From NCBI GenBank assembly GCA_903642325.1, contig CAHJWM010000031.1, positions 1-64,000 on the forward strand: a DNA stretch of 64,000 nt, read 5' to 3'. The position numbers and the translations under genes are program-made. The DNA is from Myxococcales bacterium (GTDB lineage: Bacteria; Myxococcota_A; Polyangia; Polyangiales; Polyangiaceae). The notes below the pieces were generated by a model. It was given only the letters and a program-made list of their open reading frames with translations, was not told the origin of the DNA and ran no database searches. Position 1 is the first letter of the stretch. Each line of letters opens with the position of its first letter. Below are positions 32,871 to 57,882 of the stretch, piece after piece.

Positions 32871-33033
32871 CGGTGCCTAGCGCGCCTTTCGAGCGCTGGC
32901 CCTGGGGCCGTCACGCGATCTCGGAGTGAGGCAAAACCGTTCGGCGACCCTTGACGACGGCTGGGTAACGGTGGGAAAAGGAGCGCTCGCTAGGGTTTCC
33001 CCCCTCGAGCGGTGCTTACCAGGGGAGTCGACG

Positions 33034-33864
33034 ATGAGGATTGGCATGAGCAAGAAGTATCTCGCGCGCTTGATTCTGCTCTCCGGAGCGGTCGTGGTTG
33101 CCGGCTGCGGAGGCACGGTGGCCTTCCAGGGCAAAGAAGCTCTATCGGTCACGGGCACCCCGCCCCCTCCTGCGCCGCCCCCTCCTGCACCGGCGCCGCC
33201 TCCGCCCCCCGCCCCGCCGCCCCGGGTGGAAGTCCGCGACAATAAGATCGAAATCCACGAGAAGATTCAGTTTGCCGTAAACAAGGCCACCATTTTGGAA
33301 GCCTCGTTCAGCCTGTTGGATGAGATCGCGAGCGTCATCAAAGGCGCTCCGCACATCAAGAAGATCGCCATCGAGGGCCACGCTAGCGCCGAGGGCAACA
33401 AGGCCGTGAACCTCAAGCTGTCCGATGACCGCGCGAAATCGGTCATGAAATACCTGACGGACAAAGGTATCGAAAAAGACCGCCTGACCGCCAAGGGGTT
33501 CGGATCGAGTAAGCCGATCGCCGACAACGATACGGAAGAAGGTCGCGAAAAGAACCGCCGCGTCGAGTTCAACATCGTCGAGCAAGACGTCACGGAGAAG
33601 AAGGTCCAGATCGACACCACGACGGGTAAAGAAAAGGTCTTGGAAGAGAGAAAGTCGGTCGAAAAGAAAGACGAGGCTCCCGCCGCGACCGACGCCGGCG
33701 ACAAGAAGACCACCGACAAGAAGGCGGACAAGAAGGCCGCCGACAAGAAGGCGGCTCCCACGACTACCTTGAAACCGCCGGTCAAGTCCGACTCCGCGCC
33801 TGCCATGTCCGCGTCTCCCAAGGCACCCGTCCCACCCCCCGCGCCCGCCACTTCGGCCAAGTGA
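33034..33864 (+). CDS. OmpA-family peptidoglycan-associated lipoprotein
   Basis: A 276-aa outer-membrane lipoprotein. RLILLSGAVVVAGCGG is the signal with lipobox VAGC25. A proline-rich spacer (TPPPPAPPPP type) spans about 42-64. The OmpA domain spans about 75-190 (EIHEKIQFAVNKATILE; IAIEGHASAEGNKAVN; LSDDRAKSVMKYL; RLTAKGFGSSKPIADN; GREKNRRVEF), including the residues that hold peptidoglycan. A lysine-rich tail with repeated DKKxxDKK units follows. It should tether the outer membrane to the wall. The ATG at 33034 is preceded by AGGGGAG six bases away; an ATG four codons later also has a usable site. It is followed after about 48 bases by a small lipoprotein on the same strand. Confidence 0.9.
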   Translation: MRIGMSKKYLARLILLSGAVVVAGCGGTVAFQGKEALSVTGTPPPPAPPPPAPAPPPPPAPPPRVEVRDNKIEIHEKIQFAVNKATILEASFSLLDEIASVIKGAPHIKKIAIEGHASAEGNKAVNLKLSDDRAKSVMKYLTDKGIEKDRLTAKGFGSSKPIADNDTEEGREKNRRVEFNIVEQDVTEKKVQIDTTTGKEKVLEERKSVEKKDEAPAATDAGDKKTTDKKADKKAADKKAAPTTTLKPPVKSDSAPAMSASPKAPVPPPAPATSAK

Positions 33865-33912: not shown

Positions 33913-34293
33913 ATGGCGAAGTCTTTCGGTATGCTCATGTTGCTCGCGCTCGGCGCGGGCTGCTCGTTTCACGCGCGTAGCCCCGACGAGTACCGAGATG
34001 CGACTCAGGCGCTGCTCGACACGAAGAGCGCGGACATCAAGACGTGCTACGATGAAGCCCTCAAGGGGAAGTCCGACCTTGCCGGCACCGTGACGGTCCA
34101 TTTCAGCGTGGAAGCCGAGACCGGTAAGATTGGTAATGTCTCCGCCGACGCCGCGAAGACCCAAGCCCCTGACGTGCTCACGCAATGCGTCGTGAAGTCA
34201 CTCGACGGTTTGGCTCTCAATCCCCCGGATGCCAATCCGGGTGACGGGACGTTCGAATACAACTTCGTCGTTGGGCCCACACCGAAGGGCTGA
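33913..34293 (+). CDS. Small lipoprotein resembling the AgmX/PglI C-terminal domain
   Basis: A 126-aa lipoprotein. MLMLLALGAGC ends in a lipobox at C17. The mature part, IKTCYDEALKGKSDLAGTVT, then HFSVEAETGKIGNVSAD, then VLTQCVVKSLDGLALNPP and FEYNFVVG, follows the pattern of the AgmX/PglI C-terminal (TonB-like) domain: a CY helix, a V-x-V strand and a second cysteine. This domain is usually the tail of larger gliding or secretion proteins in myxobacteria; here it stands alone. A CGGAGA ribosome binding site lies seven bases before the ATG. It probably shares a transcript with the OmpA lipoprotein and ends at the hairpin at 34318. The partner is not known. Confidence 0.7.
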   Translation: MAKSFGMLMLLALGAGCSFHARSPDEYRDATQALLDTKSADIKTCYDEALKGKSDLAGTVTVHFSVEAETGKIGNVSADAAKTQAPDVLTQCVVKSLDGLALNPPDANPGDGTFEYNFVVGPTPKG

Positions 34294-34370: not shown

Positions 34371-37300
34371 TCAGTCGCCGGACCAGGGCTTGCCGAGCCT
34401 TGCGAGTGACGCCTTGGCCTCGGCTCGATAAGGAGAGTCGCGCGGGCCAAGCCTGAGGAATTCTTCCCAATGCTTGATGGCCTCGGGCTTCAAGCCGATG
34501 GCGTGGGCCAGGAGGTTATGTGCTTCCCAGGCCCACCGTGGCGCCGGATCGTCGTTGGCCGTGAGCTCCAACGCCTTTTCGAGCTGTTCGTGGGCTGCGT
34601 CCGTCTGGTGGTTCGCGGACAGCAACTTTCCGTAGCGGAAGCGCCACGTGCCGTTGTCTGGCTGCGCTTGAATAGCGAGCTGCCATTCGCCGAGCGCTTG
34701 CTGTTCTTTTCCGAGGTCATAGTAGGCGTCGGCCAGTGACGCGTGTGCTTCGTAGCGCGACGGACGTAGCTCCAGCGCCTTCGTGAGATCAGCAATCGCA
34801 TCCTTGGCTGCGCCCTGGCGTTGGCGCAGTACGCCTCGTTGCCAATAAGCGTCGGCCAAGCCCTGGTCTAGGCGGAGCGCCTCCGCCAAAGCGTGCTCCG
34901 CTTTTGGTACGTTGCCCGCCTCATTGGCAGCCCAACCGGCGTACAACTGATACTCGGCGCGGTTGGCGTCGAGCTCCACCGCCCGCTCGAGCAAGCGCAG
35001 AGCTTCAGCCAGGCGGGTGCCCTCGATCAATAGCGCCCGTCCCAGGCAATGGTTGGTTTCTGCCGAATTGGGTCGATCGATGAGCACTTTCCGCAGCAGA
35101 TCCTCGGCATCCTTGGGGTGCCCTGCGGAGACCTTGCCGCAACCGACGCGCAGCATCAGGTCGGGATCTTTCGGGGCCTTGGCCAAGGCGCCTTCGTATT
35201 CCTTCAATGCTTCTTCGGTGCGACCGGAGGTTTCGTAAAGCAAGCCGCGCTCGAGCGCGAGCCCCGGATAATCCTTATCGACCGACCCGACTTCATCGAA
35301 CGCCTTACTCGCATCGTCGAACTTGGCGTCGCGTCGAAGCGCCACTCCCAGCTTGAACTTTGCGCCCAAGTCCTCGGAGTCGAGCGACACCGCTTGCCGG
35401 AGCTCACTCGTCGCTTCCTGATAGCGACCCTGGGACAAGGCAACCTCACCGAGGGCTTTATGGATCGCCGGTTGGTCGGGCAGCTTCGATCGAGCGTCCG
35501 CCAGCGTCTTTTGCGCGTCGTCATTGCGCCCTTGCTGGCTCTGCAAGAGCGCAAGCGCGATGTAGACGTCCACCGCCTGCGGATCGTCGCCGGGCGCCTT
35601 CAGCGCGTCGCGATACACGGTTTCGGCCTGCGCCCGGTTGCCAGAGGCCTCGAGCACGCGGCCATACCAATAAGCGACGGGTACGGCTTGCGGGTAAGTT
35701 TCGCGTAGCTTCTTAAGCATCGAGGCCGCATCCTCGGTGCGCTCGAGCGCGAGCTTCGAGCGAGCGACGCCGATCTTGGCCGACAGATCGTCGGGGTCGG
35801 CTTGGGTGCTGGCTTCGAAACGCGCTTGCGCTTCGGAATAACGCCCAGCGCGATAAAGCGCGTCCCCCAAGCCGTTCAGCGCGCGCGCGGCCTTCGGGTT
35901 GATCTTCAACGCCTCGGTGTACGCGGCTTCCGCTTGCGACATGCGCGAGCGCGCCAGGTGGATGTCGCCGAGCAAGGTCAGCGCACTCACGAGCTCGTCC
36001 GGACTCGCGGCCCCCGGGCTCGCCGTGACCGAGGCGAGCAAGCGCAACGCCTCGGCCTCGCCGGTGCGCGTCGCGCCACTCAGTCGCGCGAGCAAAATGC
36101 GCGCGCCCACGTGGTCGGGGTTCTGAAGTAGGGCATCGCGAGCGGCGCTCGCCGCCGCTTTGACGTCGCCAGCGGCGTAAGCGGCGCGCGCCACGCCGTA
36201 GGCGCTGCGTGGGCTCTTCTGAGCTGTCGCTGCGGCTTGCCAAACGGCCGCAACCGCCTTTGGGTCACCGGCTCGCAACGCGATCTCGCCGCGCAGAAAA
36301 TCGCGGTCGGGATCTTCGGGCGAGGGCGGCGGAAGCCCGTCGAAGAGCTGCTTGGCCCGCGCGATCTGACCCTCCGCCGCGGCGCGGGCGCACCTCGCAA
36401 GCAGCACATAAGCCGTATCCGAGTGGTTGGTCAGCTCGTCGAGCAATACCGAGGCCCGGGCGTGGATCTCCGGATCCGAGCCGAAGCGGAGCTCCTCGGC
36501 GTAAGCGGTGAAGGCCGCATACGCAGGCAGCTCGCGAACGCGCTTGGCGGAGGCGCGTGCCGCTTCGATGCCAGCCAATGCCTCCTTTGCCGCGGGATAG
36601 GTGTCCTTGGCCATGTCGGCGCGCGCGGCGGAGACGGTGCGGGCGACGAGCGCCGCATAATCACCCGCTTTCAGATGATCGACGATGACGTAAAAGCCGA
36701 ACGGACCTACCGTGGGCAGCAGCGCGAGTGCGGCTCCGCCGACGAACAGCACGAAGAGTCCGCCGAATAGCTGCGCGCGAGAGGCGCGTTTGCGCGGCAC
36801 GACCTCGGCCGTGTTACGGCCCGCGGGCTTCGACACGCGCGTGGGTCCGGCGCCTGCGCGAGGCTGATCTTCTTGCGGGATCGCGCCAAATTCCATGTCC
36901 TCGTCGCGTCGGGGCGCGGGCGGCGCGCCGGCTTCGATCGGCGCCTCCGCCTCGCTGCCGTCGTCGCCGAGATTGACTTCGCCATACGCGGTGCCCCCAC
37001 CACTTTGCCGCACGATGGCCGGATCGGGGGCGAAGCGAGCGCGCTCCGCGCCGCTCACCGGACTCGGATTGTCGGGTCCGGGGCCGAATAAGTCGGCTTC
37101 CTCCGCATCGGTTCCAAAGCCAGGGAGCGAAAAGCTCGGCGCGGCGCCAACCGGCAGCTCGAGGTCACCGAAGTCTCCGCCGGTGGCCGTGGGCGCCGGA
37201 GCGTTCTCCGCGGCGAGCCCGAAGTCGGGCGGAAAGCTCGGCATCTGGGAAAGCTCGAAGCCGGGCGGGGGGGGTTCCGACGGCGCGCCCGGCGCAACCG

Positions 37301-38492
37301 AGCCCGGCCGATACGAAAGGTTGGGCAGCCCGGTCGCCGAGTACGAGGGCAAGCCCGCCCCGAGCGCTGGCAGGCCCACTTGGTGCCGCTCCGGCAGAGC
37401 GACGCTGCCGTGCACGGGCGACTTATCGCCCACGAGGGGCAACCCATCATCCAAATCGAATCCCGCGTTCGAGGCCCGATGTCGGCTGTTCCCTAGAGAA
37501 GGTAACTCGATCTCGCTGCTCGCGGCGGCGCCCTGGCGCACCTCGGGCAAGCTCGCAGAAACCGACGGCAAACCGACCTCACCAAAGCGCGCGGCTGGGC
37601 TGCGGTTCTGAGCCGACGGGCTGACGCCCGTGGGGGAAAGGCTCGAGGCGCTTCCGAATGGCGGGCTCGCTACGCGCGCGCCCACCGAAGGCAGATCTAC
37701 CCCGTCCCCCGGACGGCCACCCACAATGGGCAAGTCCAATTCGAACCCGGAGCCGGCAGCGGCGGACGCGGGACGAATGGCCGCACCGGCGCGACCACCG
37801 AGCGACGGTAAGTCGAGCTCGAGCGCGGGCGTCGAACCACGTACGGCGGCGGGTAGATCGTCGAAGCCCGCGCTTGGCGGATCGGCGAAAGGCTGGGGCG
37901 CTTGCGGTGCGGGCAGGTTCGAGTCGCTCACCTCTTGCGCGCGCGGCTGAACGGCGGGCGGCGTGACGGGCGATGGCAAATCCAAATCCTCGAACGGGTC
38001 GGCGACTGAGGCCTTCTCCATCGCGCGGCGAGCCGGCATAGGCGGGGGTTTGCCAAGCGGCGCCCGTGCCTGAGGAGGAGCGGGCGCGTCGCCAAGAGCT
38101 GTCCCTTGGCGATCTTGCAAGCGAGGCCGGGGTTCGGCAGCGGGGACCAAGAACGAGCCCGGCGCAACTCCCATCATCGTGCCTTTGAGATTGACCGGGG
38201 CGGTTGGGCGCGGGGGGCCGGGAGCCGGGGCCACGCCGACCATCGTGCCTCGCATATCGGCCTTGGGCCGGGGCGCAGCCAGCGCGGGCGGCGGCGCGGA
38301 TTCCTTCTCCGCTGCGAGACCGAAAACGCCGCCGAGCACCGGGTTCGGACCGGTGCTGCGCCCATCACTCGGTGGGTCGACTTTGAATGACGTGCCGCAC
38401 TTCGGGCAGCGCATCTTCAGCCCGCTGGAAGGAATACGTCGCTCGTCGACCTGATACGGGGCCTTGCAGCCCGGGCACTCGACTTTAAACAT
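34371..38492 (-). CDS. Zinc-ribbon (MJ0042), single-TM, TPR protein
   Basis: A 1373-aa protein. Residues 1-38 are a zinc ribbon (VECPGCKAPYQ, then MRCPKCGTSFKV) with C6, C9, C29 and C32. About 45-560 is proline-, glycine- and serine-rich, with two families of short repeats: GTMVGVAP/GTMMGVAP/GTALGDAP at 82, 104 and 130, and many copies of LPSLG, LPSVG, LPIVG and LPALG between about 225 and 390. A single membrane helix lies near 573-600 (LFVLFVGGAALALLP). The last ~720 residues are tandem TPRs (for example AARALNGLGDALYRAGRYSE and ADAYYDLGKEQQALGEW). The zinc ribbon and linker are probably cytoplasmic and the TPRs periplasmic. It resembles in layout AgmX/GltJ-type myxobacterial proteins, with TPRs replacing the TonB tail. 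It is divergent from a parvulin-like gene and convergent with the OmpA/AgmX-tail pair. Confidence 0.85.
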   Translation of the reverse strand: MFKVECPGCKAPYQVDERRIPSSGLKMRCPKCGTSFKVDPPSDGRSTGPNPVLGGVFGLAAEKESAPPPALAAPRPKADMRGTMVGVAPAPGPPRPTAPVNLKGTMMGVAPGSFLVPAAEPRPRLQDRQGTALGDAPAPPQARAPLGKPPPMPARRAMEKASVADPFEDLDLPSPVTPPAVQPRAQEVSDSNLPAPQAPQPFADPPSAGFDDLPAAVRGSTPALELDLPSLGGRAGAAIRPASAAAGSGFELDLPIVGGRPGDGVDLPSVGARVASPPFGSASSLSPTGVSPSAQNRSPAARFGEVGLPSVSASLPEVRQGAAASSEIELPSLGNSRHRASNAGFDLDDGLPLVGDKSPVHGSVALPERHQVGLPALGAGLPSYSATGLPNLSYRPGSVAPGAPSEPPPPGFELSQMPSFPPDFGLAAENAPAPTATGGDFGDLELPVGAAPSFSLPGFGTDAEEADLFGPGPDNPSPVSGAERARFAPDPAIVRQSGGGTAYGEVNLGDDGSEAEAPIEAGAPPAPRRDEDMEFGAIPQEDQPRAGAGPTRVSKPAGRNTAEVVPRKRASRAQLFGGLFVLFVGGAALALLPTVGPFGFYVIVDHLKAGDYAALVARTVSAARADMAKDTYPAAKEALAGIEAARASAKRVRELPAYAAFTAYAEELRFGSDPEIHARASVLLDELTNHSDTAYVLLARCARAAAEGQIARAKQLFDGLPPPSPEDPDRDFLRGEIALRAGDPKAVAAVWQAAATAQKSPRSAYGVARAAYAAGDVKAAASAARDALLQNPDHVGARILLARLSGATRTGEAEALRLLASVTASPGAASPDELVSALTLLGDIHLARSRMSQAEAAYTEALKINPKAARALNGLGDALYRAGRYSEAQARFEASTQADPDDLSAKIGVARSKLALERTEDAASMLKKLRETYPQAVPVAYWYGRVLEASGNRAQAETVYRDALKAPGDDPQAVDVYIALALLQSQQGRNDDAQKTLADARSKLPDQPAIHKALGEVALSQGRYQEATSELRQAVSLDSEDLGAKFKLGVALRRDAKFDDASKAFDEVGSVDKDYPGLALERGLLYETSGRTEEALKEYEGALAKAPKDPDLMLRVGCGKVSAGHPKDAEDLLRKVLIDRPNSAETNHCLGRALLIEGTRLAEALRLLERAVELDANRAEYQLYAGWAANEAGNVPKAEHALAEALRLDQGLADAYWQRGVLRQRQGAAKDAIADLTKALELRPSRYEAHASLADAYYDLGKEQQALGEWQLAIQAQPDNGTWRFRYGKLLSANHQTDAAHEQLEKALELTANDDPAPRWAWEAHNLLAHAIGLKPEAIKHWEEFLRLGPRDSPYRAEAKASLARLGKPWSGD

Positions 38493-49747: not shown

Positions 49748-52189
49748 CTAGTCACTGGAACCATCGCTTGCGATGCTTCCGCTCACGTCACGAACGCGCT
49801 CGCGTACCTCGAACGCGATAAGCTCGCTCGAGGCGCCACTGGCCGCGGCCACACGCACGCGGTGCGAGCCGGGCGACAGTCGCCAGGGTAAGCGGAAGGG
49901 GGCGGCTAGGGTTGCGAGCTCGTGTTCGTCGACGAAGAACGTCAGGTGGTCACTTGCCGCGCGCGCTTCGAGTACGATTTCCTGCTCAGCGCGCCGCCCG
50001 GACTCGATCACGAAGGTTGCGCGCGGGCTCGGAAAAATCAGCTCTGGAGCGGCATTTGCTGACAACTTTGACGGCTCCGGGCAGCGTGCCGAGAACTCCT
50101 CGGGGGCGATCGGCCGCAGCGCCTGGCGCGCGAAATTCCGATACTCGCGCGGATAGCGCTCGAACGTGCGGACAATCGTCGTCTTGCAGGCCGGCCCCGC
50201 GCGCAGCATCGTCTCGGGATCCAGCGCCACGAGCTCGTGCATGTCACAGGCATGGCGCGGCTCACGCCCCGGGACGAACCACTCCTTTCGCCGATGAGGA
50301 CAAAGGTCCGAGGCGAGGTCTCCGCTCAGCTGGCATACCTCGGCCGTGATCAAGCCCGTATAATCGAGGAGCGGCGCGTGTTCCCGACCGCGCATGGCCG
50401 CCAGCATGACCTCGTGAAAGAGCGGTCCGGCCCCCGTGACTCCGGTCGAATTGATCATGGGCGTACCGTCGAAATTCCCGGCCCACACCGCCACCGTCAC
50501 CTCGCGCGTGAAACCGACCGTCCAATTGTCGCGAAAACCCTTGGAAGTACCGGTTTTCGCTGCCACTCGGAATGGGAAGGCGAGTGGGCCGCCAATGCCG
50601 AATTCGGGCGAGCGCGCCAAATCATCGGCCAAAATGTCGGTCAAAATGCGCGCAATGCGCGGGTCGATCACGGACGTCACGCGCTCGGCGGCGCGCGAAA
50701 GCTCCGCTCCATTGCCGAGCAGCGCGCGACGATAAAAGCGGAGGGGCAGAAAATCACCGCCCCGCGCGAGCATGGCGTAGGCCTGCGCGAGCTCGCTGAG
50801 CCTCACCTCCCCGTCGCCGAGCGCGAGCGCGGCGCCGTAGTGCTGGGCGCTGTTTCGCAGGGAGCTAAAGCCGGCGCGATGCAGCAGCGCGAGCACTTGC
50901 TCCGGACCGACTCGCGAGGCCGTATACACCGCGGGCACATTCAAGGAGTTGGCCAACGCGTCGCGCAGCAGCACGGGACCATGAAACCTGCCATCGTAGT
51001 TCTTCGGGGAGTACACGCCGTCGGACGTAGGAAGCCCGAGCTCCAAATCCGGTAGGCGCGTGGCGGCCGTCATGCCCAGGCTCGCCATGGCGGCGGCGTA
51101 CACGAAAGGCTTGAGCGCCGAGCCCGGCTGCCGCAGGGCCCTCGCGCCGTCGTTTTGGCCCAAAGCCTCGACCGCGTAAAAATCCGGAGACCCGACGTAA
51201 GACAGCACCTCACCGCTGACATTTTCCACGACCACCACGGACATGGCGCTGGCGCCGTGATCGGCGGCGGAGCGGACCGCCCGGCGCGATAGCTCCGACA
51301 CCTCTCGTTGCAGCCCAGAATCGATGGTGGTCGTGAGCCGCTGCACGCGCTCCCCGCGCAGCTCGGGCGCCAGCGCCCCGGAGACGAGCCCTTGCATCAG
51401 ATGCTCGGTCCCACCTTGCGCCAAAGCGCGCATCAAGTGCAGCGGTTCGAGCTCTGCGTTACGGACCGCCTCCGCCGGAGCCGAGCCGTGCGCGAGCATG
51501 CGGCGGAGCACGCGATCCCGCCGCCTGAGTAGGGCATACGTGCCACGTGCCGGGTCGTACAGGGTCGGCCCGCGCGGGATCGAGACCAATAGCGCCGCCT
51601 CGGCTAGGTCCAACTTTGCGGCGGGCTTGTCTAAGTAATAGCGACTCGCCGCCTCGATGCCTCGCACATTGGGCCCGAATTCCACCCGATTCAGGTACGC
51701 CTCGAGCACTTGCGATTTGCTCAAGCTGTGTTCGATGCGGAGGGCAATCGCAAGCTCCCGCCACTTGCCCCAAAAGGTGCGCGGGCGCGGCACGACCGAA
51801 CGCGCCAGCTGCTGGGTCAAGGTGCTGGCGCCCGACACGAGCTTGCGTTGCCAGAGCGCCTGCCCCGCCGCGCGGAGCATGGCCAGCGGATCGATGCCCG
51901 GGTGCTGATAGAAGCGCGCGTCCTCGGCAGCGAGCAACGCCGGCACCACGAGCTCGGACAGCTCGCCGAGGCTCACTCGGCTAGACAATTGACCGTCTTT
52001 GCTGCGGAGCTCACGAATCAGCTGACCATCGCGGTCCAGCACCTGGGTGCTGGTGTCTGATCCAGGCTCGAGCAACGCGCTCGGCATGTCCTCGCGCGCC
52101 GCACACGAAATCAGGGCCAAGAGCGGCACGAAATAAACGGTAATTGCGACCAATAGCAGACGCTTTCCGGCCTTTTTCCGGGTACGCAT
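49748..52189 (-). CDS. pbpC: Penicillin-binding protein 1C (bifunctional)
   Basis: About 813 aa. One N-terminal membrane helix (RLLLVAITVYFVPLLALISC). The GT51 glycosyltransferase spans about 60-240, with AAEDARFYQHPGIDPLAMLR, GASTLTQQLARSV and AYLNRVEFGPNVRG. The transpeptidase has SALK (S357, K360) in RQPGSALKPFVYA, SLNVP and the KTGTS box. The C-terminal beta domain (from about 700; VLEARAASDHLTFFVDEHEL) is the BiPBP_C module of class 1C. It polymerises and crosslinks murein in the periplasm and probably repairs it. The ATG at 52189 overlaps the stop of the alpha-2-macroglobulin gene; a GTG one codon upstream is also possible. As in E. coli, PBP1C is paired with the macroglobulin. Confidence 0.95.
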   Translation of the reverse strand: MRTRKKAGKRLLLVAITVYFVPLLALISCAAREDMPSALLEPGSDTSTQVLDRDGQLIRELRSKDGQLSSRVSLGELSELVVPALLAAEDARFYQHPGIDPLAMLRAAGQALWQRKLVSGASTLTQQLARSVVPRPRTFWGKWRELAIALRIEHSLSKSQVLEAYLNRVEFGPNVRGIEAASRYYLDKPAAKLDLAEAALLVSIPRGPTLYDPARGTYALLRRRDRVLRRMLAHGSAPAEAVRNAELEPLHLMRALAQGGTEHLMQGLVSGALAPELRGERVQRLTTTIDSGLQREVSELSRRAVRSAADHGASAMSVVVVENVSGEVLSYVGSPDFYAVEALGQNDGARALRQPGSALKPFVYAAAMASLGMTAATRLPDLELGLPTSDGVYSPKNYDGRFHGPVLLRDALANSLNVPAVYTASRVGPEQVLALLHRAGFSSLRNSAQHYGAALALGDGEVRLSELAQAYAMLARGGDFLPLRFYRRALLGNGAELSRAAERVTSVIDPRIARILTDILADDLARSPEFGIGGPLAFPFRVAAKTGTSKGFRDNWTVGFTREVTVAVWAGNFDGTPMINSTGVTGAGPLFHEVMLAAMRGREHAPLLDYTGLITAEVCQLSGDLASDLCPHRRKEWFVPGREPRHACDMHELVALDPETMLRAGPACKTTIVRTFERYPREYRNFARQALRPIAPEEFSARCPEPSKLSANAAPELIFPSPRATFVIESGRRAEQEIVLEARAASDHLTFFVDEHELATLAAPFRLPWRLSPGSHRVRVAAASGASSELIAFEVRERVRDVSGSIASDGSSD

Positions 52190-55100
52190 CACTCTACGCT
52201 CACTAACGTCGCGCCGTTACGGCCGAAGGTCTCGGGCGTATACATCTCCTCCACGCGCGTCGAGGGCAGCACGAATTTCCCGATGGTCGTGGCGCGCGCC
52301 AAGTAGCGGAAGTGGTACATGCCAGCCGCCATGTGGTCGATGAAGAAGAGTACGCGGTCATCGCGCAGCTCGCGCTCGCTGTAGTCCTCGAAGAAAGTGC
52401 GTCCGGCGGCGAGGTCGTCTCGCGACTCTTCATCATCGCACCCCGGGCAGGGCACCCCAGACGATTCACCGACCGCGAGCGCGGCCGAGCTCGTGGCTAG
52501 GTGGCTATCTACCGCTTCCAAGCCCGCTGGCAGCGGATCATCCACCACTACGAAATCGCGCGGGCTGGGCGTCACGATGACCAGATCGGCGAGCACCAGC
52601 TCGCCGCCCGAAAAGCGCGCCGTGGATACATCGGCAATGCTGGCGAGCGCTTGCGGCAAAGCTTCCGGCGTGACCGCCCTCAGCGCTTTCTGCACGAAAA
52701 ATCCCTGATCGAGCGTGTCCGCCGGCAAGGTGCGGCGCGCGTAACGGAGGCGCGCCTGGTAAAACATCGTTCCGGAGCCGCGTTTTTCGAAGAGCAACGA
52801 GGCCCCCGGCCGCCCCACCACTTGGTTCATGTCGACCCGCGCCTGCTGACTGCTCGAGCTGCGACCGCGCAGGTCCGCCGAGAGCACGGCGTTTTGCCCC
52901 AGCAAAGCTCGGACTTGAAAGTCAGGCACGATCTTCTCTTGGGCTTTGCGATACGCATCGAGCGCGAGCAGCGCGTAGCTCGTCTCTTGCGTGCTGCGCC
53001 AGGTTCCGTTTATACGCTGCAACAGAAGACCGCGTGCAAGGCTCGCCGCCAGCGGGTGGTCGGGCTTGGCGATCAGCAGCGCCCGCAGCACGAGCGCCGC
53101 CGTGCGAGCCTTCGAATCCATCAAAACTGCGTATTCGTCCGCGGTGTTCTCGGACACGAAGGCTGCGTCATTCTCGATCCGGAGCGCGTTCTCCAGGTCC
53201 GGCAGCAGCGCCGAGACCAGCTGCTGCTGACCTTTGCTGACGCCGAGCGCGTGCACGAGCAGCGCCTTGGCAAACAAAGGCAGCTCCTTTCTGTGCTCGA
53301 ATAGACGCTGCATGTAGCCCACGTCCGGGGCCCCCATGTCGGCCAGCACGTCCAAGACGAAGGCCACCGTCGCCAACCGATACGGCGAATCCGTGGTCTC
53401 CGCCAGGTAGCGGCGGAGGTAGTCGCGTCCGCGTTCGAAGACGGGCTTTGGCACGCTCGCGCCATGCAGATTGGCTTGGCCGAGCACGAAGAGCGCATAA
53501 GCACCCACCCACGGATAGCTCTCGCTCGAGTCTGGCCACAGCCCAAACCCGCCGTCGCTGTGTTGCCGCGACACGATCTCTGCGATGGTGTGCGGGACCA
53601 CTTGGTCCAAATCGAGCGGCAACGGGATCTGAAAGTCTTTGGCAAGATCACGCAAAGGCACGAGGGGTATCAGCATGCTGGAGAGCTGCTCGGTGCACCC
53701 GTACGGGTACTGAACCAGCTGCTCGACGCCGGCGCCGAGGCCCACCAGAGCCGTAGAAGAAACGCTGATGTCGAGCTGTCCTACGTCTGCACGGACCGCG
53801 GACAGATCGCCCAAGCTCTCCGCCACCGAGTCCTCGGACGTGCCGTAAAGCGCGACGGCCTCCAGCGTCGCCGGCGAGACGACTTTCCGGGTCACGAGCA
53901 CGGCGTCCCGCTCCCCACCAGCGCTGACATCGAAGCGAAAGCTCGCGGTTCCCGCGCTATCTGCCCGAAACGGAAAGCGCACCTCGATTGATTCATCCCG
54001 CTTCAGGCTCACTGTGCGCGTGCCCTCAGAGGTCAACGCGATGCCCGTAGCCCGGGCCTGGACGGTGACCGGCCCCGGCTCGAAGCTCTTCGCGGAAACC
54101 ACGATCCCAGCCTGAAGCACGTCGCCCGCGCGCAAGAAGCGCGGCAGCGCGGGCCGTGCCATCAAGCGTTTGCTAGTCGTGATGGACGTTGCGCCGAAGC
54201 CGTAGTTGTCCACAGCGCCGACCGCCACCGCCATGATCCGATATGTGGTCAGACTCTCGGGCAGCTTGAACGACACGCGCGCTTTGCCGCTGGCGTCGGT
54301 GATCACACTCGGGTTGAAGTACGCCGTCTGTCGGAAATCACGGCGCGCCGGGCTCAGGCCACCCCCGCCGCCATCACGCCCCTTTTCGGCGCCCAGCGCG
54401 CCATCCAACGCCTCCAATCCAATGTGCGCCAGGGCATCGCGCGACTCCAGCGTGGCGACGCCCAATGGGCGCGGAGCGCTGAATACGGGCAGCGGATCCG
54501 GAGTCTTGTAGCCAATCAAGGACAACACGCCTTCGTCGACCGCGTACACGGTCACCTCGGTCGCCTGTGCCTTGCCTGCGCGATCGGACACGTTTAGATC
54601 AACGTGGATCTCGGCGCCCGGCCTGTAATCCGCCTTATCCGCGGAGACGGCGACCGAAAGGCGACGCGCCTCGGGGTCGATGCGCAACTCCGAATAGCCA
54701 ACGCGGTAGGGGGCGCCGAGGCCAGCCTTGTCTTGCCGGCCTCGCGCGCGCACCAAATGCACGGCCACGAAGGCATTCGGCCGCATGTCCTCGCTGATCG
54801 GCAGATCAAAAGTGGGCGTCGGGCCGTGCAAGTGCACTCGCTGCGCACGATAAATGCCCGCACGTTCCACGGTGACGAGCGCGTCGGCCTCCGGGAACGG
54901 AGATTTCACGAGCACCCGAGCCGTGTCACCGATCTGATAAGCTTGCTTATTGGTCTTCAGCTCCACGCTCAGGGCATCGTTGTCGCCGAAGCCCGTACCC
55001 GATTCGCCAATCGCGTAAACGCCCAGCGCCGACTCGGCCAGATTGCCGCGGCTGTCCTTGGCGGTGGCGTGCAGCACTACATAGCCGGCCGCCGGAATAT

Positions 55101-57882
55101 CGAGAGCGCAGGTTACCGGCGCCCCGCCGGTCAGCACCGTGCAGGACGAAATCACGCGATCGACGACTTTACTCAGCAACCGTGAATCCCCACCCGCCTG
55201 GGCCTCGCGGGCGTACGTCCAGCGCCGCGAGATCAGCTCGACTTTCACGGATTTACCCGGCAGGCGCTGACCGCTTGGAGACAGCGCCAGCACCGTCGTC
55301 GACAACTTGCCGGGAGCTTTGGCAAAATAGTCTTCTGGCTCCTTCAGGGCCACGTAAAAGTCGGCCGGGTGCACGATGGCGGAGGTGCTGCCCGCAATGC
55401 TCTGACGCGACACATCGCTTACCTCCGCCTCCGCAGTGATGAGCTCCGGACCACGCTGGCCGGGCAGCTCGAGCTTGTGCGCAAAGGTAAGCGCGCCGTG
55501 CGCATCGAGCTTGCCGTGCTGAGAGGCGAGCTCGCCCGCGTCGAGCGCGACTTCCTCGAGATCGGCGTGGAAGGCAGAGGCGCTCGTGACGAAGCCGGAA
55601 GAGCCTGGTACTTCGAAGCTGCTCGCGGCGCGCGAGAGGGTGTAGTGGGCTTCGGCCCCCGCCATGGGCGCCCCGAACAAGTAATCGCCGTGCCCCGTCC
55701 AACGTGCCGTATCCCCGCGGACGTAGCTCGAGTGCTCGCTCTCGACACCCACCTTGAACTCCGCCGGCCGGTATTCCGATACGTCGAACGACTCGTACAC
55801 GACGTCATCGAGCCCGGTCGCGCGGAGTTGCCACGCGCCCAGGTGGGCTGTCTCGGGCACCTTGAAATGCGTTGCGAACGTTCCGAATCGGCTCAGCTTC
55901 AAGCGCTGACTCTGGACTCGTTCGGCGTCGGGTGAGTAAAGCTCGACGGCAAGCTCGTCTCCCGCCGGGGTTAGGTTGCCGCTCGGCAACTCGCGGCGCA
56001 GGATCCCTTTCACCTGCACGTCATCGCCGGGCCGATAAATCCCTCGCTCGGTGAAGATCAGACCATAGGTGTGTCGCTTGCCCGAGCCGTCGAAGGGCAC
56101 GGACATGCGCCAAGGCGACAAGTAATCGCGCGTGTTCTCGAACGTCCAATCATCCCCACTCCGCACCACCAGGAGCGAGTCGGGGTCGCCCTCACTCGGC
56201 TCGAGCCTGGGCTTGAAGTCCGCGGCTGGAATGCGCGCTATGCCTTGCAAGTCGGTCTGGTACTCGCGCGCCGAGCCGGCCGAGCCGACCGACCCGACGA
56301 TGCGCACGGAGGCCTGCGCCACGGGCTCGCCGGAGGAGATGCGAGTAACCCAGACCAACGAGCCATCGGTGGAGAGCTTGGCCGTCACGCCCAGGTCGGT
56401 GACCTTGACGATCTTGAAGGTCTCGAGGGAGCGGTAATCTTTTGGGTGGCGCTCGTAATCGACGGCGATCGCCAGCGCCCCGTGACTCTGACCGCTCAAA
56501 ATGTTGCTCAGGTTCAGGCTTTCCCTGTGGGTTTCGTTCAGCGGTGCGCCCGAGACGACGCTCTGCTGATGCGCGGCGGGCAAGCCACGAAGGAGCTCCA
56601 AACGGGCGAGCGGGTTGGTTTCGTGGACCAGCAAAAGTGCGGTCTCAGGCGTCAGTGCAGCGCTGGTCAGTCCGTAGCGCGCCACGTTCACCGAGCCGAT
56701 GGGCAGCGCCGCCGCGTCGCGCGCATCCAACGTTTGACCTTGCACGCCGATTTCGACGGCCGGAAAGAAATCGTCGATCTCGAGCTCTTTCGCCACGGAA
56801 CGACCCAAACTTTGACCGTACACGTCGTGCAGCTCGCCGTTCACGCGCAGGGCGTATTTTTGCCCGGGCCGAAAGGGCGCCGCGATGCTGAGGTAGGAGA
56901 CGGGCGTCGACTCGTCGGTCCAATTCTCGAAACGCATGGGTACGGGCGGCGTAAACGACAGAGCGCGCTTCAAATTTCTGAGCAACACCGGGTTGCTGAG
57001 CTCGAGTGACCACGCGCCCCCGGGGCGGCAGTGCTCGTGCGGCGTTTCACGATCGCAATTGACGCTCGCGATCGCCAGCGGCCCGTACGTTTCGACCGAA
57101 AGCTCAATGGCGGAGGCCATGGGCAACGGTCCCTCCAAACTGGTCAACGCCGCGGCCACGCTCAGCTGGATCTGCGCGTGAACGGGCAGTGGTTTGCGCG
57201 GGCGCAACTCGAGCCGTTTGCTTTCGCTCGGATCGGGACGCACGACGGTGAAGTCGAGCGCCTCGCTCTTTCCCGCGCTCAGCGCGCTCAGCGTGCTCAG
57301 GGCGCGGAGCTTTTCGGGGTCTAGGCCCTGATTGAAATGCAGAGTGAAGAAGGCGCTCGGCTCGAGACTACGTGAGCCCCCGGCCGGCATGCTGTCGACC
57401 AGCTTCAAGCGCGGGGTCGAAAACTCGAACGTGTACGCGCGACCGAGGGTCGCGCCATCCAGCGCGCGTAGGTCCGCGGGCGCGGTCACCTCATACTCGG
57501 TCGCACCGGGCAGGTGCGGCGTGTCGGGCACGAAGCGCAGGGCGTGAGTTCCGACCCATTGCCAACGCCCAGCGATCGGCGGCGCGATGGCGAGAGCAGG
57601 GGTCGGCGCCCCCGCGAGCTCCAGCTTGCGAAGCGGGCGGCTAAACACCAAACTGAGCTCGCTGACCTCGCTGGCGTCGCCTCGAGGGCCAGCGAAAACC
57701 ACTCGAAATGGCTCATCGCCTGCTTGCTTCGCGCCGGCAACCCCCGGTGCCAGCGCTCCGTTCGCCGACCTCACCGTCGCCTTCGCGCCCTCCATGCACG
57801 CCGCGCCGAAGATGAATAGCCCGCCCAGAGTGAGGCACAACAAAAGTAGCCGAAAGCGCTGGAGCTGCGAGTGGGTTGTCAT
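52189..57882 (-). CDS. Bacterial alpha-2-macroglobulin lipoprotein (thioester type)
   Basis: An 1897-aa envelope lipoprotein. LCLTLGGLFIFGAAC at the N-terminus is a signal with lipobox FGAAC. About ten macroglobulin (beta sandwich) domains follow. The thioester motif YPYGCTEQLSS is intact, with C1396 and Q1399, so protease trapping by thioester chemistry is predicted. The alpha-helical thioester-domain repeats follow (EIVSRQHSDGGFGLWPDSSE), then the C-terminal receptor-like domains. It is the YfhM type, which protects the periplasm against foreign proteases when wall damage exposes it. It sits just upstream of pbpC with overlapping stop/start, as in many proteobacteria. The ATG at 57882 is followed by a normal signal peptide. 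Its start codon touches that of a divergent TPR gene. Confidence 0.95.
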   Translation of the reverse strand: MTTHSQLQRFRLLLLCLTLGGLFIFGAACMEGAKATVRSANGALAPGVAGAKQAGDEPFRVVFAGPRGDASEVSELSLVFSRPLRKLELAGAPTPALAIAPPIAGRWQWVGTHALRFVPDTPHLPGATEYEVTAPADLRALDGATLGRAYTFEFSTPRLKLVDSMPAGGSRSLEPSAFFTLHFNQGLDPEKLRALSTLSALSAGKSEALDFTVVRPDPSESKRLELRPRKPLPVHAQIQLSVAAALTSLEGPLPMASAIELSVETYGPLAIASVNCDRETPHEHCRPGGAWSLELSNPVLLRNLKRALSFTPPVPMRFENWTDESTPVSYLSIAAPFRPGQKYALRVNGELHDVYGQSLGRSVAKELEIDDFFPAVEIGVQGQTLDARDAAALPIGSVNVARYGLTSAALTPETALLLVHETNPLARLELLRGLPAAHQQSVVSGAPLNETHRESLNLSNILSGQSHGALAIAVDYERHPKDYRSLETFKIVKVTDLGVTAKLSTDGSLVWVTRISSGEPVAQASVRIVGSVGSAGSAREYQTDLQGIARIPAADFKPRLEPSEGDPDSLLVVRSGDDWTFENTRDYLSPWRMSVPFDGSGKRHTYGLIFTERGIYRPGDDVQVKGILRRELPSGNLTPAGDELAVELYSPDAERVQSQRLKLSRFGTFATHFKVPETAHLGAWQLRATGLDDVVYESFDVSEYRPAEFKVGVESEHSSYVRGDTARWTGHGDYLFGAPMAGAEAHYTLSRAASSFEVPGSSGFVTSASAFHADLEEVALDAGELASQHGKLDAHGALTFAHKLELPGQRGPELITAEAEVSDVSRQSIAGSTSAIVHPADFYVALKEPEDYFAKAPGKLSTTVLALSPSGQRLPGKSVKVELISRRWTYAREAQAGGDSRLLSKVVDRVISSCTVLTGGAPVTCALDIPAAGYVVLHATAKDSRGNLAESALGVYAIGESGTGFGDNDALSVELKTNKQAYQIGDTARVLVKSPFPEADALVTVERAGIYRAQRVHLHGPTPTFDLPISEDMRPNAFVAVHLVRARGRQDKAGLGAPYRVGYSELRIDPEARRLSVAVSADKADYRPGAEIHVDLNVSDRAGKAQATEVTVYAVDEGVLSLIGYKTPDPLPVFSAPRPLGVATLESRDALAHIGLEALDGALGAEKGRDGGGGGLSPARRDFRQTAYFNPSVITDASGKARVSFKLPESLTTYRIMAVAVGAVDNYGFGATSITTSKRLMARPALPRFLRAGDVLQAGIVVSAKSFEPGPVTVQARATGIALTSEGTRTVSLKRDESIEVRFPFRADSAGTASFRFDVSAGGERDAVLVTRKVVSPATLEAVALYGTSEDSVAESLGDLSAVRADVGQLDISVSSTALVGLGAGVEQLVQYPYGCTEQLSSMLIPLVPLRDLAKDFQIPLPLDLDQVVPHTIAEIVSRQHSDGGFGLWPDSSESYPWVGAYALFVLGQANLHGASVPKPVFERGRDYLRRYLAETTDSPYRLATVAFVLDVLADMGAPDVGYMQRLFEHRKELPLFAKALLVHALGVSKGQQQLVSALLPDLENALRIENDAAFVSENTADEYAVLMDSKARTAALVLRALLIAKPDHPLAASLARGLLLQRINGTWRSTQETSYALLALDAYRKAQEKIVPDFQVRALLGQNAVLSADLRGRSSSSQQARVDMNQVVGRPGASLLFEKRGSGTMFYQARLRYARRTLPADTLDQGFFVQKALRAVTPEALPQALASIADVSTARFSGGELVLADLVIVTPSPRDFVVVDDPLPAGLEAVDSHLATSSAALAVGESSGVPCPGCDDEESRDDLAAGRTFFEDYSERELRDDRVLFFIDHMAAGMYHFRYLARATTIGKFVLPSTRVEEMYTPETFGRNGATLVSVE

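Follow-up and report, generated by a model that had tools for sequence, protein, structure and literature searches.

The DNA analysed here (the window) is the first 64,000 nucleotides of contig CAHJWM010000031.1 from a Myxococcales bacterium of the Polyangiaceae. Its reverse strand encodes a protein with an N-terminal zinc ribbon (ZnR), a long disordered linker, one predicted transmembrane helix and a C-terminal array of tetratricopeptide repeats (TPRs). The linker of this ZnR-TPR protein contains a short threonine motif of the form TMxG, which recurs in unrelated membrane proteins and is the main subject of this analysis. The features on which the argument depends are as follows.

34371-38492, minus strand: gene for the ZnR-TPR protein, 1373 amino acids, from the open reading frame (ORF) translation
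38373..38492, minus strand: N-terminal zinc ribbon (MJ0042/Zn_ribbon_4), residues 1-40, from PF13717 (46.5 bits), the AlphaFold2 (AF2) model, Foldseek and phmmer
38226..38252, minus strand: threonine motif copy 1, RGTMVGVAP, residues 81-89 (T83, G86), kept in 18/18 proteins
38160..38186, minus strand: threonine motif copy 2, KGTMMGVAP, residues 103-111
38082..38105, minus strand: degenerate copy 3, GTALGDAP, residues 130-137
36714..36770, minus strand: predicted transmembrane helix, residues 575-593, from the hydropathy maximum and a positive-inside charge bias
34374..36701, minus strand: TPR superhelix, predicted periplasmic, residues 598-1373, from Pfam TPR families and AF2

Protein anatomy and conservation of the threonine motif

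The N-terminal zinc finger matches TIGR02098 at 33.8 bits (cut-off, 20.9), and its blocks are modelled by AF2 with a predicted local distance difference test (pLDDT) score of 82-84; the stretch after them, with the threonine motif in it, is modelled at low confidence. The best Foldseek match is the zinc finger of ZitP (2nb9; probability 1.00, E 0.016), and phmmer relates the domain to the solved AgmX/GltJ zinc finger (7zok, E 7e-6). A disordered Pro-, Ala- and Gly-rich segment of some 530 residues separates the zinc ribbon from the transmembrane helix. The TPR part is modelled with a mean pLDDT of 91.6 as 44 helices, or about 20 TPRs; a fold search with this model returned generic TPR superhelices (Ctr9, OGT, Ski3). 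Across 17 proteins, the 15 residues on the N-terminal side of the transmembrane helix contain 72 Lys/Arg and 13 Asp/Glu, compared with 13 Lys/Arg and 23 Asp/Glu in the 15 residues on the C-terminal side. From this charge bias, the linker is predicted to be cytoplasmic and the TPRs periplasmic, in agreement with the original prediction, which was made from the DNA letters and placed the TPR part across the membrane from the linker.

A scan of 84,980 species genomes returned 37 loci, 17 of which are orthologues (Polyangiaceae or Polyangia) and were found through peptides other than the threonine motif. The other 20 (L023, L025, L028 and L031-L047) are TPR-only matches or, in the case of L043, a 20-residue stub, and were not used as orthologues. 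The window protein and its orthologues form a set of 18, which includes the truncated L027, absent from the linker conservation profile, and L015, whose start is cut and which is absent from the 17-sequence alignment of residues 1-115.

All 18 proteins hold the pattern T[MQVH][LIVM]G[VL], with Lys or Arg ahead of it in nearly all. Outside the zinc finger, the alignment of residues 1-115 has no invariant residues other than T83 and G86. RGTMVGVA ranks third by conservation among the 8-residue linker blocks, after MEFGAIPQ and GTAYGEVN, both near the membrane; its 2.95 bits per column compare with a linker mean of 1.54. Conservation above the linker background in orthologues, the check that the original prediction had named for its motifs, was therefore found for GTMxGVAP. 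That prediction had listed GTMVGVAP, GTMMGVAP and GTALGDAP at residues 82, 104 and 130. All three positions are correct; the first two are good copies of the motif, and the first is conserved. A second copy occurs elsewhere only in L011 and L022, and the third has no counterpart in the other 17 proteins. Three GT[MA]xGxAP strings in the 534-residue linker compare with a shuffle mean of 0.0007, a count never reached in 20,000 shuffles, and no DNA tandem repeat lies beneath the linker of the window protein.

Recurrence and residue specificity of the motif

Across 39 genomes (the window's own and relatives), KxTM[LIV]GVA has 41 matches, compared with 5 for the reversed pattern. Thirty-three of these, from 24 ORFs in 17 genomes, lie downstream of an in-frame zinc-ribbon signature; the same signature is present in 11 of 894 background ORFs of the window's own genome. 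The 24 ORFs fall into three non-homologous families: 8 Zn_ribbon_4-TPR orthologues, 13 proteins of Zn_Ribbon_1/DUF4234 type (Pfam was run on 4, and DUF4234 is present in 3) and 3 of Zn_ribbon_3/Ig-like type. Extending a wider pattern to 140 genomes of the phylum gave 76 matches (control, 23), with 28 (control, 1) in the 14 sampled Polyangiaceae genomes. Linkers that contain the wider pattern belong to one protein each of PilZ (L121), GAF (L120), kinase-like (L135), TPR (L129) and GltJ-like ZnR and GYF_2 (L141) type, and KKTMLGMA is found in zinc-ribbon proteins outside the class (L099, L100, L123). The check proposed with the original prediction, a search for the motif in other zinc-ribbon or kinase proteins, finds it in further zinc-ribbon proteins and in one kinase-like protein. 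The motif strings, by which alone a prior description was looked for, had no match in the literature searched.

Two proteins show variations on this arrangement. The zinc-ribbon/Ig-like protein L070 has seven copies of KTMLG[VM]A type, of which the final four are spaced 32 residues apart, and is a natural multivalent version. The window's own genome encodes a second ZnR-transmembrane-TPR protein (L050), with RQTLQGVAPP in its linker as a possible divergent copy.

The motif is specific for Thr and Gly. A Ser version, searched with TCN codons and hence 4/6 Ser codons, gave 6 matches compared with 3 for the control, none within a zinc-ribbon ORF. With either position freed within motif ORFs (filtered by linker composition and deduplicated to 58), Thr was found in 80/80 and Gly in 80/80, a tally biased by the gathering of these ORFs with patterns that require both residues. 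Among 28 distinct matching sequences, Thr, Gly and Val are encoded with varying third codon bases; the constraint therefore acts on the protein, and a DNA-level element is ruled out.

A candidate docking motif and its alternatives

It is proposed that the ZnR-TPR protein is a bitopic inner-membrane scaffold, with the zinc finger and disordered linker in the cytoplasm and a rigid TPR superhelix in the periplasm. The linker sequence [KR]-x-T-M-(L/V/I)-G-(V/M)-A would be a short linear motif, specific for threonine, at which a common cytoplasmic partner docks, and the same motif would serve many membrane proteins with signalling roles in Polyangia, zinc-ribbon proteins among them. This reading is assigned a probability of about 0.58. 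The analysis shows the anatomy of the protein and, for the motif, conservation, recurrence in unrelated proteins and specificity for Thr and Gly; that the motif binds a protein, and that one partner is shared, is inferred. The original prediction had regarded both of its repeated motifs as docking sites for a cytoplasmic partner, an idea that the conserved and recurrent TMxG motif upholds and for which the Leu-Pro (LP) repeats discussed below make a weak case.

Several observations weigh against a shared docking motif. Strict GTMxGVAP occurs in the window's own genome in two copies, both in the ZnR-TPR protein, and nowhere else; a relaxed pattern finds 9 places there (control, 2), among which the sole further convincing protein is a zinc-ribbon protein with QRTIMGLAPPP and RKTILGFGP (L169). 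The 41 matches across genomes are concentrated in a few protein families, with related members in each, so the counts are not independent, and the 80/80 tallies carry the bias noted above. Beyond Polyangiaceae, the wider pattern has 48 matches compared with 22 for the control, mostly background. Two further points concern phosphothreonine readers: the +3 position is always Gly, at odds with the usual choice of forkhead-associated (FHA) domains, and an FHA-GGDEF protein of the same genome has a different motif, EKTRVTQVV, in its tail.

The docking reading takes two forms, which differ in whether the threonine is modified, and each is at present a tentative proposal. In one, a Ser/Thr kinase would phosphorylate the motif Thr, and FHA domains would read the phosphothreonine in trans, as in the tails of DgcB, GarA and OdhI. 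FHA readers need Thr-only sites, and this is what was found: Thr in 18/18 proteins, with the Ser pattern at background for the codons covered (4/6). The basic residue that mostly stands at -1 or -2 from the Thr, the disordered and multi-copy nature of the sites, and a 5.8 Mb genome with 86 kinase-domain and 38 FHA matches also favour this form, for which DgcB offers a precedent (PMC6733907). However, FHA readers are usually selective at +3, as exemplified by V17 of DgcB in the same paper, and a kinase site alone would need no invariant Gly there. Furthermore, among 10 FHA rows parsed from 30 fetched FHA loci, only two sequences, KTVMGQ and YTVIGD, are close to the motif.

In the other form, which is given the same odds as the first, the extended T-M-L-G-V-A segment would bind by strand addition in a groove of a single abundant partner, such as a polarity, chaperone or motility factor, with Thr and Gly needed for shape. 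G86 is as invariant as the Thr, the preference for Met and hydrophobic residues is strong, and the motif is present in many membrane proteins, all of which would suit such a groove; against this, more Ser or Val would be expected at the Thr position than is seen.

Explanations other than docking fare worse. That the motif folds back onto its own zinc ribbon as a cis latch is improbable: it does usually lie some tens of residues past a zinc ribbon, but the AF2 model of residues 1-115 leaves it unpacked with a pLDDT of ~55, which led to rejection of the latch, and the motif also occurs in proteins without a zinc ribbon (L121, L129, L135). Functionless low-complexity drift of Pro/Ala/Gly linkers in GC-rich genomes is still less probable. 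The varying number and position of LP units, with tandem expansions in L013 and L024, make drift plausible for those units, though not for TMxG, for which the shuffle and reversed-pattern controls rule out chance or composition, and the Thr and Gly invariance and recurrence in unrelated families add to the case against it. Least probable of all is mimicry of a kinase activation loop, which is likewise rich in Thr and Gly with basic residues. Of 30 fetched kinase loci, 26 yielded an activation loop, and the 25 that were aligned follow approximately [RK]xG-x-V-[FM]-G-T-P, a spacing that T-M-L-G-V-A-P does not fit; mimicry was rejected on this ground.

What is new here is that TMxG is a threonine-specific, lineage-wide linear motif common to unrelated membrane proteins. 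A bolder extension of the docking proposal, on which the odds are rather against, is a lineage-wide threonine code in polyangial myxobacteria, in which [KR]xTM(L/V/I)G(V/M/I)A would route unrelated membrane receptors to one reader, possibly through phosphothreonine. The motif would then stand one to seven times in the cytoplasmic arms of zinc-ribbon, PilZ, GAF, kinase and GltJ-like receptors. Kinases, FHA proteins and zinc-ribbon membrane proteins are very numerous in myxobacteria, their wiring is little known, and a motif common to many of them would offer a direct handle on a shared reader.

Other linker elements, gene neighbourhood and known systems

Three further elements of the linker and two neighbouring genes complete the description of the locus.

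37083..37820, minus strand: LP-unit region of [DE]LP[SA]/FGE[IVL]DLPSxGG type, ~residues 225-470, with 6 LPx[LV]G and 16 LP (6.7 expected)
36966..37001, minus strand: juxtamembrane island GGGTAYGEVNLG (GGG[TV]x[YF]GEVNL), residues 498-509, second most conserved linker block
36867..36902, minus strand: juxtamembrane island EDMEFGAIPQED (EDMEFGAIPQE), residues 531-542, most conserved linker block, 4.13 bits per column
33913..34293, plus strand: convergent neighbour, small lipoprotein with an AgmX/PglI C-terminal domain (NCBIfam NF033768, 43.6 bits, cut-off 40; synteny)
32926..33864, plus strand: neighbour, OmpA-like, probably peptidoglycan-binding lipoprotein (PF00691, 82 bits; synteny)

About eight LPx[LV]G units had been described in this linker. 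The enrichment in LP is real, the count is six (residues 228, 254, 267, 330, 351 and 374, with LPGFG at 456 besides), and the LPx[LV]G form is not conserved, being missing from 5/18 linkers, one of them that of the truncated L027. Six copies compare with a shuffle mean of 0.11 and were never reached in 20,000 shuffles of the linker. The LP dipeptide is present at 2 to 4.4 times its composition-based expectation in 17/18 linkers (L027 has 3, with 1.8 expected), full linkers having 16-31 compared with 6-12 expected. It is mostly preceded by Asp, Glu or Gly and followed by Ser or Ala, inside repeats such as FGEIDLPSLGG; the conserved form is [DE]LP[SA] within FGE[IVL]DLPSxGG, a looser repeat of which LPx[LV]G is a part that varies in copy number, and these repeats are expanded in tandem in some orthologues (L013, L024). 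Among the fetched loci, which do not cover whole genomes, FGE[IVL]DLP is confined to the ZnR-TPR family. The absence of LPx[LV]G from several orthologues rules it out as a conserved docking motif. Because the LP excess persists while LPx[LV]G varies, the LP units are probably a variable multivalent or spacer element, more like low-complexity stickers than discrete docking sites, and probably do no more than tune how long, sticky or multivalent the arm is.

Both juxtamembrane islands outrank GTMxGVAP in conservation, and the original prediction did not mention them. Neither YGEVNL nor MEFGAIPQE was seen in other proteins among the fetched loci, again short of whole genomes.

Within the fetched DNA, most orthologue loci keep parts of the gene order dnaG-rpoD-(OmpA-like lipoprotein-small lipoprotein)-ZnR/TPR-PPIC-TPR1587-TPR1844; both lipoprotein neighbours were detected at 6 of the 18 loci searched. 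The AgmX/PglI C-terminal domain is otherwise the periplasmic end of GltJ-like proteins, and its presence in the neighbouring lipoprotein therefore places the protein in a trans-envelope module, some parts of which are akin to gliding proteins. Elsewhere in the window (49748-57882, minus strand), a transglycosylase/transpeptidase penicillin-binding protein with BiPBP_C adjoins a bacterial alpha-2-macroglobulin, a familiar gene pair.

Comparison with characterised proteins shows partial likenesses. ZitP of Caulobacter is laid out as zinc finger, transmembrane helix and DUF3426, and its residue W35 is needed for PopZ binding, according to PMC5182065. Both proteins have a cytoplasmic N-terminal zinc finger of the same fold and are bitopic with a single transmembrane helix, as predicted here. 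Unlike ZitP, the ZnR-TPR protein has a motif-bearing linker of 530 residues and a TPR superhelix in place of the C-terminal DUF3426. F36 (window 38385-38387, minus strand) is invariant among the 17 sequences aligned over residues 1-115 and is matched in ZitP by W35, the PopZ-binding residue, and in AgmX by Ile.

GltJ/AgmX, a gliding protein of Myxococcus, consists of a zinc finger that binds MglA, a GYF domain, a transmembrane helix and a TonB-like domain. It shares with the ZnR-TPR protein a related zinc finger and a long linker, and a lipoprotein with an AgmX/PglI C-terminal domain is encoded here by a neighbouring gene. In contrast, TPRs stand where GltJ has its TonB-like domain, and no GYF_2 was found among the best 25 of 28 Pfam families, the region being disordered linker; NF033761 (cut-off 450 bits) is not among the best 25 of 31 NCBIfam families, the last of which scores 22 bits. 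GltJ-like zinc-finger paralogues in the window's own genome (L049, L051, L053) share linker motifs of their own, DLFGxIDxAGxEDE (looser in L053) and GARNE[NS]SVLFSL.

By domain content, the ZnR-TPR protein is neither ZitP nor GltJ. In its possible mode of action it resembles DgcB of Bdellovibrio, in which, according to PMC6733907, an FHA domain reads the tail EKpTSIVA in cis, with Val at +3. Both have a conserved Thr within a short motif of a disordered region; the motif described here, KxTMLGVA, differs in having Gly at +3 and in lying in the linkers of other proteins.

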